A stretch of DNA of 64,000 bases from Nitrospirota bacterium (GCA_040755395.1 JBFMAX010000003.1:62001-126000); one strand, 5' to 3'; counted from the stretch's first letter, positions 4,196 to 10,336 are shown. Numbers and translations are program-made. Notes: generated from the letters alone by a model not told the origin.

Positions 4196-4633
4196 TTACG
4201 GCCAGTAATGGGCCAACGCCTTGACGTATCCGAAGACGATATCCCGCCGCGCCACGATCCCTACCAGCTTATTGCCGTTCACGACCGGCACCCGGATCAA
4301 GAACCGGTCTTGCAGCAGTTGGATCAGTTCCTTGACCGGCATGTCTTCCGCGACGCTCACCACCTTGCGGGTCATGATGTCAGCCGCCGTGACCTGCCGC
4401 AGATCCCGGTCCTCATCCATGACCCGCAGGAGGTCAAACTCGCTCACCAGGCCCACCAGGGTCCGGTCTTGCTCGACGACGGGGACGCTCCCGAAATTCC
4501 GCTCGCTCAGAATCTCGGCGATGGCCAGTCCTGTGGTTTGGGGACTCACGGTCACGACCGCATCTTCCATGAGCTGCCGGACGGTCAACGTCTTAGGATC
4601 GCAGGCCCTTGCCATAAATTCCACCCCTCTCAT
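4196..4633 (-). CDS. Two-CBS-domain protein
   Basis: A 145-residue protein consisting of two tandem CBS modules (TVRQLMEDAVVTVSP... and TAADIMTRKVVSVAEDM...), each with the GIVxRRD/GLVSEFDLL signature that forms the adenosyl-ligand pocket. It is a clear paralogue of the protein at 9173-9610: the N-termini (MRGVEF..ACDP against MRKSEF..ACDP) and C-terminal FGYxKA..YW align. This supports the Met at 4633 as start, behind GGGAGG. Stand-alone CBS pairs bind AMP, ATP or SAM and tend to act as energy sensors or as regulators of a partner. No fused effector domain is present. Confidence 0.85.
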   Translation of the reverse strand: MRGVEFMARACDPKTLTVRQLMEDAVVTVSPQTTGLAIAEILSERNFGSVPVVEQDRTLVGLVSEFDLLRVMDEDRDLRQVTAADIMTRKVVSVAEDMPVKELIQLLQDRFLIRVPVVNGNKLVGIVARRDIVFGYVKALAHYWP

Positions 4634-4889: not shown

Positions 4890-5315
4890 TCAGGGAGAGG
4901 GCCGCGCGATCTTCCGAGTGTGGCGCGACACGTCGTGGTACTTGGCCGGCGTCACCAGATAGCAATAGTCGAGCAGCCAATCGGCCAGGTCAGGGGCGAT
5001 GCCGTGCTCACGGGCCTCCAGCATATCCATGAACCGATTCATGGCGGCATAGGCAGCTCGATCGTCACCTCGCTCCAATGCGCCCATGACGGCCTGAAGT
5101 TTCTTCAAGTACGGGGCATACTTCGACGCGCCGCTCTCGCCCTCGGTGGCCTGCGCCATCAAAACCGCGCGGGCCATCGTCGCGATCCACGCATGCTCGA
5201 CGCCTACGGGAGAACCGCCGAACGCGCGCTCGACGGCGAGAGCCCATACCACCACCGCCACGAGAAGAAGAGCGGTAACTGACCCGGCAACGTGCCTCGA
5301 AAGATCTTGTCTCAT
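4890..5315 (-). CDS. Exported protein of unrecognised family, YHDVSRH paralogue 1
   Basis: A 141-residue protein behind a GAGGTG ribosome site. It has one N-terminal hydrophobic segment (about residues 10-30) that looks like a signal peptide or anchor. The mature part shares a conserved core with two neighbours (6445-6894 and 7005-7448): PYL..L..V, GD...YAAMNRFMDMLE....GI, then DYCYLVTPAKYHDVSRH at the C-terminus. The invariant Cys, two His and Asp in the last motif could bind metal or haem, but no CXXCH is present. I do not recognise the family. Three tandem-strand paralogues around a Cys-rich membrane protein suggest one periplasmic or membrane-surface complex. Confidence 0.75.
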   Translation of the reverse strand: MRQDLSRHVAGSVTALLLVAVVVWALAVERAFGGSPVGVEHAWIATMARAVLMAQATEGESGASKYAPYLKKLQAVMGALERGDDRAAYAAMNRFMDMLEAREHGIAPDLADWLLDYCYLVTPAKYHDVSRHTRKIARPSP

Positions 5316-5427
5316 CCGTCACCTCGCGTTCCCCCGAAAACCGTCAGTTCGGTCACCGAGACGGCCGGCGCTGCAGGTGGGAGAGAACATCACTGCCGGC
5401 CGCCTCGGTTCCTGGCGGGAAAGGTCG

Positions 5428-6360
5428 TCATGCCACCGCCCGCGCGGTCGGCCACAGCACGCAATGCTTGTCGCAGGTCACGGGGCCTCCGTTGAAGGCG
5501 GAGCACCGGACGACCTCGTACGGCGTGTCGTCGCTGACCAGCATCTCCACCGTCACGTCCCGCTTGTGTTCGTCGCACAGCATCGTGATCGTTCGGACGG
5601 ACGGGCCGCGCTCTCGCAGGCCCATGCCAGCCGCGGCCAACACACAGAGCGCCGCAGCAGCCATCAGAATCGGCAGGACCGTGCCGTCACCGATTGAGCC
5701 GAAGCCCCAGCCCGGCTCCCGCGTCACGATGGGCTCAGGTACGGCCGGGACCCGCTTGGCCAGTTCGCTCATCACGGTCGAGGCCGCGAGCAAGGTCGCG
5801 GTAGACGCAGCCGGTTCCTTGGCCGCCCGATCCATCGCGAGCACTGCAGCCACCACAGCCTGCCCGTAGTTCACCTCCGCCTTCGCCATGTCGTCGAACA
5901 GAGTCCGCGCCCCGCTCACAATCCGACGCCCAAGCGCTTCCTGCGCCATCGCATCACTTGCGCTCCTCATCGCGAAGAACTCCTGGCTTTTCCAATCCGA
6001 CGGGAGCTTGAACACACTCTCCAGGAACTCCCGCCGGGCCAGAGCACCCCGAGCCACGTCTTTGGCCAGGTTCGGCACGAACGTTTCAGTGGCCACCTTG
6101 ACCTGGGTCAGCCTCTTGATCGCATCCCCAAGGGCCACCTGGGTCCGTTCGCGTTCTTCCGTGACCCGTGCCGGGGTGACCACGGCCTCGTTGATCGCCT
6201 GACTCAGTGTCTCTTCAAGCCATCGATCCTGGACCGGAGGCGCGGGCTGCGTCAGCGGACCTCGATCAAGTCCCAGGTAGGCCATCAGGACGACGGCGCT
6301 GCCGACGGTCGTGATCGCTCCCGCCATCACGGCCATGTCGATGTGATCCCAACATCTCAT
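5428..6360 (-). CDS. Two-TM membrane protein with Cys-rich C-terminal domain, unknown
   Basis: The Met at 6360 follows GAGGT with six-base spacing; a GTG two codons upstream is the alternative. The protein is about 310 residues: an N-terminal TM helix (AVMAGAITTVGSAVVLMAYL), a largely helical middle region rich in Ala and Glu of about 180 residues, a second TM helix (VLPILMAAAALCVLAAAGM), and a short C-terminal domain with four cysteines (MLCDEHKRD, VVRCSAFNG, VTCDKHCVLW). The last domain looks like a zinc knuckle. By the usual positive-inside reasoning, the middle region would be periplasmic and the Cys domain cytoplasmic. It lies between members of the YHDVSRH family on the same strand. No family name recognised. 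Confidence 0.7.
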   Translation of the reverse strand: MRCWDHIDMAVMAGAITTVGSAVVLMAYLGLDRGPLTQPAPPVQDRWLEETLSQAINEAVVTPARVTEERERTQVALGDAIKRLTQVKVATETFVPNLAKDVARGALARREFLESVFKLPSDWKSQEFFAMRSASDAMAQEALGRRIVSGARTLFDDMAKAEVNYGQAVVAAVLAMDRAAKEPAASTATLLAASTVMSELAKRVPAVPEPIVTREPGWGFGSIGDGTVLPILMAAAALCVLAAAGMGLRERGPSVRTITMLCDEHKRDVTVEMLVSDDTPYEVVRCSAFNGGPVTCDKHCVLWPTARAVA

Positions 6361-6444
6361 CGCCACACCTCACTTTCTCTCTCTTCCTTCTGCGGCTTCG
6401 TCCGGTTCAAGGGTGCGAGCCGTTGCGGCTTCTGCCGGGCAGCC

Positions 6445-6894
6445 TCATCCGCCGCCGCCGAAGTCGATGACGTTGTCGTTCCAATAGTCAAACCCGCCCT
6501 TCGACAGTTCCGGGTTGTGCCGCGCATAATCATGGAACTTGTTTGGCGTCACCTTCCCGCAGAAGTCGAAGATCTCTTTCGCGGACCAGGTGGGAATCCC
6601 AATCCCTTTGGGATCCTTATCCAGCATGTCCATGAGCGTGTTCATGGCCGCGTACGTGCCTTTCTCGTCGCCTCGGTTGAAGGCCATCCGCACCAGGGCG
6701 AGTTGGCCGAGATAGGGGTCATACGCCCGCTCCCGGGCTTCGAATTTCGCCAGCTCCTGATGGTCGCGCACCAGCGCCGTGATCTCGTCGATCCACGTGT
6801 CCGATGCGGCCTCCGCGATCAGCGGTATAAACGCCAACGCGCATGCCAAGGCGACAGTGAACCACTTATGATTGAGTCTGTGTGTCATCGTCAT
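6445..6894 (-). CDS. Exported protein of unrecognised family, YHDVSRH paralogue 2
   Basis: 149 residues with a textbook signal peptide (KWFTVALACALAFIPLIAEAAS, cleavage after AEA). The AAGGAGGTGA site precedes two close Met codons; the second (6888) has the better nine-base spacing. The mature protein carries the shared core: YDPYLGQLALVR, GD..GTYAAMNTLMDMLD, GI, then FDFCGKVTPNKFHDYARH. Compared with its paralogues it has a C-terminal extension rich in Asn, Asp, Trp and Gly, ending in four glycines. The Cys, His, Asp and His of the terminal motif are retained. The signal peptide indicates that the conserved domain works outside the cytoplasm. Function unknown. Confidence 0.75.
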   Translation of the reverse strand: MTMTHRLNHKWFTVALACALAFIPLIAEAASDTWIDEITALVRDHQELAKFEARERAYDPYLGQLALVRMAFNRGDEKGTYAAMNTLMDMLDKDPKGIGIPTWSAKEIFDFCGKVTPNKFHDYARHNPELSKGGFDYWNDNVIDFGGGG

Positions 6895-7004
6895 TCACCT
6901 CCTTTCCTGCGGTCTTCTTGAGAACCTCTGTCGGTGCACAGGAACCGGACGAAGCCGGAAGAACCCTCTCTTGATCCGTCGCCCCTGGCGGCCGCTCCGT
7001 AGGC

Positions 7005-7448
7005 TTACGACATCGGAGGTTCGCCGTAAGATTGAAGTTTCTCCAACCGCTTCCAATCGGCCCGCTGATGCCGGCTCACATCGTGGTAGTTGGCCGGCGT
7101 CACCTGGTAGCAATAATCCCAGATCGCCTCCGCCGCTTCGTCGCTGATCCCGCCCTCCCGCGCTTCCAACATGTCCATGAATCGGTTCATGGCCGTGTAA
7201 GCTCCAAGTCGATCGCCTGATCGGACGAGGTTGCGCACGAGCTCCAGTTGGCCCAGGTACGGCTCAAAGGCGTCGGCCGGCTGCTTCAGCGCCTTTTCGT
7301 TCAGCACAAAACTCCTAAGAAGAACGACCCATGCGTCGGCTTCAGGCGTCACATGGATCGATTTCGGCAGCAGGAGCAGCGCGACGAACACAACTGCGCC
7401 CACGGCTGACACGGCGAGGAGCGGCAGGTATGAGCGTTGTCGGAACAT
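7005..7448 (-). CDS. Exported protein of unrecognised family, YHDVSRH paralogue 3
   Basis: The Met at 7448 (MFRQRSYLPLL) is preferred because GGAG lies eight bases upstream; a longer reading from 7487 lacks a site. An N-terminal hydrophobic helix (LPLLAVSAVGAVVFVALLLL) without an obvious cleavage site suggests a membrane anchor. The remaining 110 residues contain the family core: FEPYLGQLELVRN, GDRLGAYTAMNRFMDMLEA, GGIS, then WDYCYQVTPANYHDVSRH. This copy is closest to paralogue 1 in the terminal motif and to paralogue 2 in the PYLGQL segment. It is the first gene of the cluster downstream of the PAS-LuxR regulator, which makes control by that regulator plausible. Confidence 0.75.
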   Translation of the reverse strand: MFRQRSYLPLLAVSAVGAVVFVALLLLPKSIHVTPEADAWVVLLRSFVLNEKALKQPADAFEPYLGQLELVRNLVRSGDRLGAYTAMNRFMDMLEAREGGISDEAAEAIWDYCYQVTPANYHDVSRHQRADWKRLEKLQSYGEPPMS

Positions 7449-7605
7449 GGATTTTGCTCCAGCTTCTCTGGTTTCCACGATCCCCATTTCTATTTAAAAG
7501 TTAGCGCGCGGGCATCCGGCGAACAATGAGCCGGGTGCATCATTTTGCCGGCCGGAGCAGTTGCACCATGAAGTCAGTAAACGGTGAGTGGTTCGCCGTC
7601 GAGTC

Positions 7606-8295
7606 TCAGGCGGGCGGTGATCCGGGATGGTAGGCGATCGCGAGGGCCTCCAGACGGGTGTGGGCGCCGAGCTTGGCGAGGATATGCTGGATGTGGTTCC
7701 GCACGGTCGCCGTGCTGATACACAGCACATCGGCGATCTGCCGAGTGGTGTGGCCGGCCGCCAGATGCCGCAGCACCTCTCTCTCGCGTTCGCTCAAGGA
7801 CAGCGTCTGTGGAATCTCCGCGGACTCGGACCGCGGCGAGGCGGCGGCCGGGTTGAGCTCATGGCGCGCCTGTTCCACCGGAGCAGACACGACCATGTGG
7901 AGCTCGTTCACGAGCCGGCGCACCTTGGCAAGGGCGGTGATGTCGCGGAACAGATGTGCGCGCAGGAAGCGTGACCTTTTGCGAGTCGGCACCGGAAACG
8001 AACTGACGTTGATCCACACGCGGCGGCCGGCTTTGGTCTGGGTCCGCATATCGAAATGGCGGACTGCGCCGCCCCGGGCCAGTTGGGCGCCGATCGCGCA
8101 GGTGGGCGAGCAGAGGGGATGACCGCCCGGTGCCGTGCCGCAGAGGACTTCATGGCACGGGCGCCCGACGACGTCCCGGGCGCGGAACCCCAGCAGACGC
8201 TCGGCGGCTCGATTCCAATAGATGATCGTGCCACGCTCATCGACCACCATCGCCGCATCGGCCGCCCGTTCGAGCATGGCGGTAAGCAGCTTCAT
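7606..8295 (-). CDS. PAS-LuxR transcriptional regulator with a four-cysteine PAS insert
   Basis: 229 residues. An N-terminal PAS domain (ERAADAAMVVDERGTIIYWN) is followed by a Cys cluster with spacing C-x4-C-x9-C-x3-C (CHEVLC ... CSPTC). The rest of the PAS fold ends with FRDITALAKV, then a linker, then a C-terminal LuxR/NarL helix-turn-helix (LSEREREVLRHLAAGHTTRQ) of about 65 residues. There is no receiver domain, so the PAS region is probably the sensor. Four cysteines in such a domain could hold an iron-sulfur cluster or zinc, or act as a thiol switch; this is inference. It lies upstream of the YHDVSRH cluster on the same strand, its likely target. Confidence 0.82.
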   Translation of the reverse strand: MKLLTAMLERAADAAMVVDERGTIIYWNRAAERLLGFRARDVVGRPCHEVLCGTAPGGHPLCSPTCAIGAQLARGGAVRHFDMRTQTKAGRRVWINVSSFPVPTRKRSRFLRAHLFRDITALAKVRRLVNELHMVVSAPVEQARHELNPAAASPRSESAEIPQTLSLSEREREVLRHLAAGHTTRQIADVLCISTATVRNHIQHILAKLGAHTRLEALAIAYHPGSPPA

Positions 8296-8735: not shown

Positions 8736-9176
8736 ATGCAGGACGACAAACCCTCGGGGTTTCACCGGCTCATGGTTGCCCAAGTCATGGAGACGCAGGT
8801 CCAAGTGGCGCACCCGCAGACGAAAGCCGATGTCATCGCCTCGATGATGATCGAAGGGTTCGGCGCCGTGCCGGTCGTGGATGACCAAAAGCGGTTGATC
8901 GGCATCGTGAGCGAGCACGACCTGCTGGTTTCGCTCGACCGGAAGCAGAAGTGGAGCGAGGTGACGGCGCAGGACGTGATGGCGCGCAATCCGTACTCGG
9001 TTCGTCCGGAGATGGACATCGCGACGTTGGTCCACGTGCTGCGCGCCAGCGGCCTGATCCGCGTGCCGGTCGTCGATGTCCACGACAAGCTGATCGGCAT
9101 CGTGGCCCGGCGGGACGTGCTGCGCGCCTATCTGAGCGACGGGTCCGCCACGCGCGCTTCGGCAAAGGGGGCATGA
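8736..9176 (+). CDS. Two-CBS-domain protein
   Basis: 146 residues behind a GGAGGAATGAG ribosome site. Two CBS modules: MVAQVMETQVQVAHPQTKAD... ending GIVSEHDLL, and TAQDVMARNPYSVRPEMD... ending GIVARRDVL. It ends in a TGA that overlaps the ATG of the next CBS gene by four bases, so the two are translationally coupled. The two products may pair as a hetero-oligomer, since CBS dimers form discs. No catalytic domain is present. Likely an adenine-nucleotide sensor for an unidentified partner. Confidence 0.85.
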   Translation: MQDDKPSGFHRLMVAQVMETQVQVAHPQTKADVIASMMIEGFGAVPVVDDQKRLIGIVSEHDLLVSLDRKQKWSEVTAQDVMARNPYSVRPEMDIATLVHVLRASGLIRVPVVDVHDKLIGIVARRDVLRAYLSDGSATRASAKGA

Positions 9177-9610
9177 TGCGCAAGAGCGAATTCATCGATT
9201 GGGCGTGCGATCCGGCAACCCTAACGGCGGCGCAACTCATGCAGGACGCGCTATTCACCTGCACGCCCCGTACGGATGTCCTGTCGATCGTCCGCATCAT
9301 GACCAAGTGGAACTTCGGCAGCCTGCCCGTTGTAGAAGAAGACCGGACGCTGGTCGGGTTGGTGAGCGAGTATGACGTGCTCCAGGCGGTGATCGAGGGG
9401 AGGGATTTGCGGAAAATCTCGGCGGCGGACATTATGACTCGGCAGGTCCTCTCCGTGACCGAGGACATGAATTTGGTCCAGATCGCCAATCTTTTCCAGG
9501 ATCGGTATGTCACTCGGCTCCCGGTGGTACGGGACAAAAAACTCGTGGGGCTCGTGGCCAGGCGGGACCTGCTGTTCGGTTATGCGAAGGCCTGCCAGTA
9601 CTGGTCCTGA
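9173..9610 (+). CDS. Two-CBS-domain protein, paralogue of the 4196-4633 protein
   Basis: About 145 residues (MRKSEFIDWACDP...), with ATGATG start overlapping the stop of the preceding CBS gene. The tandem CBS modules read TAAQLMQDALFTCTPRTD... with GLVSEYDVL, and SAADIMTRQVLSVTEDMN... with GLVARRDLLFGY. It aligns end to end with the protein at 4196-4633, including the N-terminal CDP and C-terminal FGYxKAxxYW, so the pair arose by duplication about 5 kb apart and on opposite strands. Confidence 0.85.
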   Translation: MMRKSEFIDWACDPATLTAAQLMQDALFTCTPRTDVLSIVRIMTKWNFGSLPVVEEDRTLVGLVSEYDVLQAVIEGRDLRKISAADIMTRQVLSVTEDMNLVQIANLFQDRYVTRLPVVRDKKLVGLVARRDLLFGYAKACQYWS

Positions 9611-9817: not shown

Positions 9818-10336
9818 ATGGCAAAGAAAGAAATGGCGAAGAAAGAGAAGGAGTCGAAGGCGCTGGTTCCCAAGCGGCCGGCCGAGCTTGTCCCCAGATG
9901 GGAAGACATCGACCGGTGGTTCGATCGCATGGCTGAAGAGTTCTGGCGACACCCGTTCCCGAGTCTATTCAGGCCGGAGCGCTGGTGGCCCGAATCGCTG
10001 GTCCCGCTGCGAGCGCCCTCGATCGATGTCTATGAGGGGAAGGATGAGGTCGTGGTCAAGGCCGATGTGCCGGGCATGGTCAAGGAGGACATTGAAGTCA
10101 CACTCTCGGGCGAAACCTTGACCATCAAGGGAGAAAAGAAAGAGGAGAAAGAAGTCAAGGAACAGGATTATCGCCGCCGGGAACGGTCTTACGGAGCCTT
10201 CGTCCGGAGCGTGGCGTTGCCGTGCGAGGTGAAACCCGAGGAGATCAAGGCGTCGCTCAAGGAAGGGGTGCTGGAGATTCACCTGCCCAAGACGGAAGAG
10301 GCCAAGAGAAAGGCGATCACCGTAAAGATCGATTGA
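9818..10336 (+). CDS. Hsp20 small heat-shock protein
   Basis: The ATG at 9818 follows AAGGAGG with seven-base spacing; an in-frame Met upstream at 9776 lacks a site. The 172-residue product has a Lys-rich N-terminus, a Trp/Phe-rich N-terminal arm (FDRMAEEFWRHPFPSLF), then a complete alpha-crystallin domain from about residue 65 (SIDVYEGKDEVVVKADVPGM) with the signature GVLEIHLPK and a C-terminal ITVKI tail. It is an ATP-independent holdase for unfolding proteins. A truncated GYD reading frame lies immediately downstream in the same frame, showing a past rearrangement next to its stop codon. Confidence 0.92.
   Translation: MAKKEMAKKEKESKALVPKRPAELVPRWEDIDRWFDRMAEEFWRHPFPSLFRPERWWPESLVPLRAPSIDVYEGKDEVVVKADVPGMVKEDIEVTLSGETLTIKGEKKEEKEVKEQDYRRRERSYGAFVRSVALPCEVKPEEIKASLKEGVLEIHLPKTEEAKRKAITVKID

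Follow-up and report, generated by a model that had tools for sequence, protein, structure and literature searches.

A predicted PAS-LuxR regulon of Cys/His proteins and cupredoxins in Nitrospira with a 24-bp palindrome at the operon promoter

The gene cluster analyzed in this study carries a 24-bp palindrome that overlaps the -35 element of its promoter and is newly described here. On balance, we favor the reading that the adjoining PAS-LuxR protein serves specifically to activate an inducible metal-binding module in the periplasm, most likely for copper, and that both together form a self-contained regulon. A search of the literature found no earlier description of such a regulon. The window, i.e. 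the whole stretch of DNA that was analyzed, comprises 64,000 nucleotides of a Nitrospirota genome (GCA_040755395.1). All five genes lie on the minus strand between positions 8295 and 4890, as described in the first-pass annotation: the PAS-LuxR one-component regulator (229 aa, 7606-8295), the putatively exported helical protein FAM1 (7005-7448), its likewise putatively exported paralogues FAM2 (6445-6894) and FAM3 (4890-5315) and, between the latter two, TMC, a protein with two predicted transmembrane helices and four C-terminal cysteines (5428-6360). FAM1 very probably starts at 7448 and not at 7487, because a GGAG ribosome binding site precedes 7448 and 7487 falls at the predicted transcription start. 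FAM2 has a signal-peptide-like N-terminus and a strong Shine-Dalgarno sequence. No Rfam match was found over the first 12 kb of the window, and a generic scan revealed no terminators beyond chance between the operon genes. The flanks encode an Hsp20-like protein and three two-CBS-domain proteins, of which the third is assigned from its resemblance alone (4196-4633 on the minus strand; 8736-9176, 9173-9610 and 9818-10336 on the plus strand). Related CBS, YbaK-like and citrate synthase genes adjoin the cluster at two further loci (L040 and L045).

It had been proposed to survey the gene neighborhoods, and this survey showed that the FAM paralogues and the regulator co-occur across Nitrospira genomes. 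The usual order of the operon is PAS-LuxR, FAM, CupB, CupB, CupA, CupA, FAM, FAM, with TMC added in a few genomes. In Nitrospira defluvii the operon is located at about 3.808-3.813 Mb of FP929003. Both CupA and CupB resemble cupredoxins and begin with a signal-like sequence. Against the PDB, CupB matched nitrosocyanin best (1iby, 7.6e-4), followed by copper nitrite reductase (0.0017), and nitrosocyanin was the sole match of CupA (E 0.75). In the alignments of both families the His, Cys and His ligand columns are invariant and comprise a Cys-x2-His segment and an N-terminal His. CupA-1 keeps a nitrosocyanin-like C-x2-H-x4-H, and a motif search of both families detected a few members with variant or truncated Cys-His segments. 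Nitrosocyanin, a red copper protein of ammonia-oxidizing bacteria, has Glu at the N-terminal ligand place. CupA and CupB resemble it in the C-x2-H ligand pattern and may be remotely related to it in sequence, but they have His in place of this Glu, and each operon encodes several of them, in Nitrospira that do not oxidize ammonia. Nitrosocyanin has been discussed as an NO oxidoreductase candidate in ammonia oxidizers, and no ncyA (nitrosocyanin) has been reported for comammox Nitrospira (PMC6478695).

The operon was absent from the ammonia-oxidizing (comammox) genomes examined. AMO (PF02461) was present in 61 of 175 family genomes, belonging to two genera, and absent from 23 of 23 genomes with the operator described below, a comparison that is confounded by phylogeny and sets aside the probable chance match of one genome (G247), the sole overlap of AMO and operator. 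FAM was detected in 46 of 396 genomes sampled from the phylum, all from one order, and when 84,980 species genomes were scanned with a pattern, it was retrieved in Nitrospirota only, plus one contig labelled Gaiellales. The family was found only in Nitrospirales save for this one actinobacterial MAG, whose contig carries both operon and operator (QZKG01000068.1, loci L038 and L046) and is a candidate for mis-binning or horizontal transfer.

The shared motifs noticed at first reading were borne out by 32 invariant columns in the FAM proteins, including PYL..L..V, GD, Y.AMN..MDML, GI, D.C..VTP and HD..RH. The conserved Cys and His residues are C113, H122 and H127 in FAM1, C112, H121 and H126 in FAM2, and C118, H127 and H132 in FAM3, and all three proteins have an N-terminal signal or anchor helix. 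The FAM profile search of the own genome gave E values of 5e-65 to 5e-69. In a tree of 79 members, of which we rely on the large clades only since it is built from few columns and has long end branches, FAM1, FAM2 and FAM3 each belong to a different clade, and all three clades are supported and include orthologues from other genomes. This placement argues for ancient paralogues and against a recent local duplication.

Searches for a known family, which had also been suggested, left FAM without a relative above threshold in Pfam, NCBIfam and PDB. Neither FAM nor TMC matched a Pfam or NCBIfam model at cut-off, and the PDB profile search with FAM yielded nothing significant (best E = 0.014 over a 28-residue match). 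The AlphaFold model of FAM1 (pLDDT 88) consists of an N-terminal anchor helix and an all-helical domain; Foldseek found no PDB match for it at E <= 0.001, and the top hits were generic helix bundles. The FIMAH domain (PF22888) gave sub-threshold matches in 14 of 48 FAM members (best E 0.0023), but the best score of 18.9 bits stays below the Pfam gathering cut-off of 24.8, and the match in the window FAM (residues 49-103) ends ahead of the Cys/His tail. The Csp copper storage proteins are likewise helical bundles tied to copper and appear far down the fold-match list, but at E values above 3, and FAM has one conserved Cys where Csp has a Cys-lined core. An anti-phage defense system was dismissed as PADLOC gave no match for FAM or TMC and matched the regulator through its HTH region only.

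The terminal Cys/His motif differs between the branches of the family. Of 62 FAM sequences encoded beside PAS-LuxR or cupredoxins, 61 retain the Cys, the first His and the terminal Arg-His, and the one that does not has a broken frame. FAM proteins beside AlgE-type porin and NtrC-type genes likewise retain the Cys and both His. The branch beside Tll0287-type heme proteins has lost Cys and His altogether. The motif regarded as invariant in the first-pass annotation thus holds for the PAS-LuxR/cupredoxin group and fails in another branch, and because of that branch the fold appears to have a role without Cys and His. In Nitrospira defluvii (L066:4076-8002) and at three further loci (L060, L062, L064) a FAM branch with an HARDRH tail adjoins an alginate-export-type porin (PF13372) and a GAF/sigma-54 activator. 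The own genome encodes two FAM proteins without the Cys/His motif (L007:3642-13203; contig C1, about 41.6-51.2 kb). Their neighbors are an HtrA-FGE-like fusion, a Tll0287-type heme protein, a kinase/response-regulator pair and a TMC-like membrane protein, and this gene set was seen again in G010, G018 and partly in G040.

Retention of the domain in a branch devoid of Cys and His would be expected if FAM proteins were metal-free helical envelope stress proteins, acting as chaperones or scaffolds, with the cupredoxins merely co-induced and the Cys, His and Asp residues holding the C-terminal loop or forming thiol switches. The stress-type neighbors in the window (CBS, Hsp20-like and YbaK-like genes), the Usp-like and adenosine-specific kinase genes that adjoin in relatives, the existence of FAM-only operons and a fold search that returned generic helix bundles only are all in line with such a function. 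However, the near-complete conservation of Cys, His and Arg-His in operon-type FAM extends across deep paralogue clades and recurs, for Cys and both His, in the AlgE-porin/NtrC branch. It goes beyond the expectation for loop packing, and we regard a metal-free role as rather unlikely compared with the metal-binding module.

Hydropathy places two transmembrane-like stretches of TMC near residues 9-27 and 228-246, and these enclose a helical region predicted to be periplasmic. Its C-terminal Cys domain (C262, H265, C286, C296, C300), whose Cys are invariant in four orthologues, is predicted to be cytoplasmic. The AlphaFold model from four sequences was poor (pLDDT 51). TMC is remotely homologous to the membrane protein of the Tll0287-adjacent FAM branch (hhalign probability 91.5, E 8.7e-7), and therefore the pairing of FAM and TMC is found in two contexts. 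A possible broken copy of the Cys domain with one internal stop lies in the own genome about 4 kb ahead of the window start (L131:1495-1740; C3:57825-58064).

The palindrome was first noticed when the intergenic regions that separate the regulator from the first gene of the operon were aligned and read. In the window this predicted operator, AAAATGATGCACCCGGCTCATTGT, with the pattern A(A/C)AATGA-N10-TCATTGT, is located at 7523-7546 (minus strand) and matches the consensus exactly. It overlaps a predicted sigma-70 promoter (7498-7526, minus strand) that has a -35 TTGTTC (7526-7521), a 17-bp spacer, a -10 TAACTT (7503-7498) and a start near 7491. With its weak -35 and -10, this promoter escaped a generic promoter scan. 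Among 34 distinct site sequences the operator is conserved and overlaps the -35 (TTGTNN) with a fixed 17-bp spacer to the -10 TAnnnT, and T44, A45 and T49 of the alignment are kept in 32/34, 32/34 and 30/34 sites. With up to 3 mismatches allowed, nothing else in the window matches the operator (mean by chance 0.01), and it is the single exact match in the own genome. When a wider regulon was sought in this genome, two further matches with 2 mismatches were found, the same number as in the control (two). The 175 family genomes contained 31 sites compared with 0 control matches: 28 sites lie directly upstream of FAM, CupA or CupB, one upstream of a regulator gene, one is an orphan with no family gene nearby and one is a probable chance match. 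The orphan is a perfect operator without a FAM or Cup gene downstream (L154:1501-1524, genome G336) and was probably left behind when a CupA-FAM operon was lost. Usually the operator is placed directly downstream of the regulator gene. Moreover, some CupA-FAM pairs distant from the regulator also carry it, which implies control in trans.

The regulator consists of an N-terminal PAS domain (PAS_9, 8e-17) and a C-terminal GerE HTH (4e-18), with no response-regulator receiver match in Pfam. Four cysteines had been noted in the PAS domain. C47, C62 and C66, in a C-x14-C-x3-C spacing, are conserved in 16 of 16 relatives, and C52 varies. The PAS/LOV-LuxR one-component activator EL222 was among the PDB matches and similarly joins a PAS-type sensor and a GerE/NarL-type HTH in one small protein, but the alignment has GRPCxEVxxG in place of the flavin-adduct motif GxNCRFLQ. 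We therefore rejected a LOV photoreceptor. The promoter geometry is that of LuxR-type class II activation as at lux-box promoters, for which a dyad centered near -42 is expected: a dyad of about 20-24 bp centered near -43 overlaps the -35 and has a fixed spacing to the -10. The half-site A(A/C)AATGA is, however, unrelated to the lux box, and the regulator has no acyl-homoserine-lactone domain.

Regulator and operator were both present in 7 and both absent in 30 of the 37 family genomes searched for both, although relatedness makes this co-occurrence weaker than the raw count. In a set of 61 genomes, all nine regulator genes above 350 bits were in operator-bearing genomes. These data make for a strong predicted link between regulator and operator, and we infer that the PAS-LuxR protein is a dedicated activator that binds the palindrome. 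The region upstream of the regulator's own gene mostly lacks a site, as would also be expected if the palindrome belonged to another regulator and the PAS-LuxR gene only adjoined it. The joint presence or absence in 37 of 37 genomes, a dyad positioned as for LuxR-type class II activators and the usual site directly downstream of the regulator gene make such a mere adjacency very unlikely. It is equally improbable that the cupredoxin operon is in decay and has left the window cluster as a remnant, a fate suggested by the lack of cupredoxins in the operons of the window, G010 and G014, by genomes that retain only the last FAM and by the orphan operator, since the five window frames are intact, the Cys/His residues are conserved, the operator equals the exact consensus and G010 has the same order of PAS-LuxR, FAM, FAM and TMC, which indicates a stable alternative form. 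The window genome encodes one CupA and two CupB homologues elsewhere, without an operator. In several Nitrospira genomes (L116, L118, L120, L121, L122 and L123) the terminal FAM stands alone, with neither regulator nor operator nor cupredoxins, as if the remaining operon had been lost.

According to the favored reading of an activator-controlled metal-binding module, the cytoplasmic PAS-LuxR protein would sense a redox-type signal through its PAS domain with the three invariant cysteines; thiol oxidation, oxygen, NO or copper are candidate signals. Probably as a dimer, it would bind the palindrome centered near -43 and activate the one sigma-70 promoter. The operon would then yield helical-bundle FAM proteins that are exported and either membrane-anchored or periplasmic, with a C-terminal Cys-His-His cluster most likely binding metal and copper as the best candidate. 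In most Nitrospira it would also yield several, typically four, cupredoxins, and in a few genomes, including that of the window, the two-helix Cys protein TMC. Under stress, the most likely task of the module is to handle copper or to transfer electrons in the periplasm. The suggestion of a redox- or metal-responsive envelope complex made at first reading gained strength from the cupredoxins of the usual operon, the FAM Cys/His residues, the PAS cysteines and the dedicated operator. The weakest step is the proposal that FAM binds copper, as one branch of the family has neither Cys nor His and cupredoxins are missing from the window operon, so that copper could not be argued from this locus alone. 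The persistence of solitary FAM genes without regulator or operator in several genomes also runs counter to this explanation. A bolder and at present doubtful proposal is that FAM proteins are a new class of small helical copper proteins with a Cys-His-His site, which would be joined with nitrosocyanin-like cupredoxins in an inducible periplasmic copper or electron-transfer module, possibly linked to NO, that is found in nitrite-oxidizing Nitrospira only and governed by a cysteine-based PAS-LuxR switch.

Canonical Nitrospira are among the main nitrite oxidizers, and little is known about their envelope copper proteins and one-component regulons. The operon described here places nitrosocyanin-like proteins in a putatively inducible operon of nitrite oxidizers. 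The circuit is small and testable: its regulator is named, its predicted operator spans 24 bp and its target genes are few, so that a reporter may reveal the signal.
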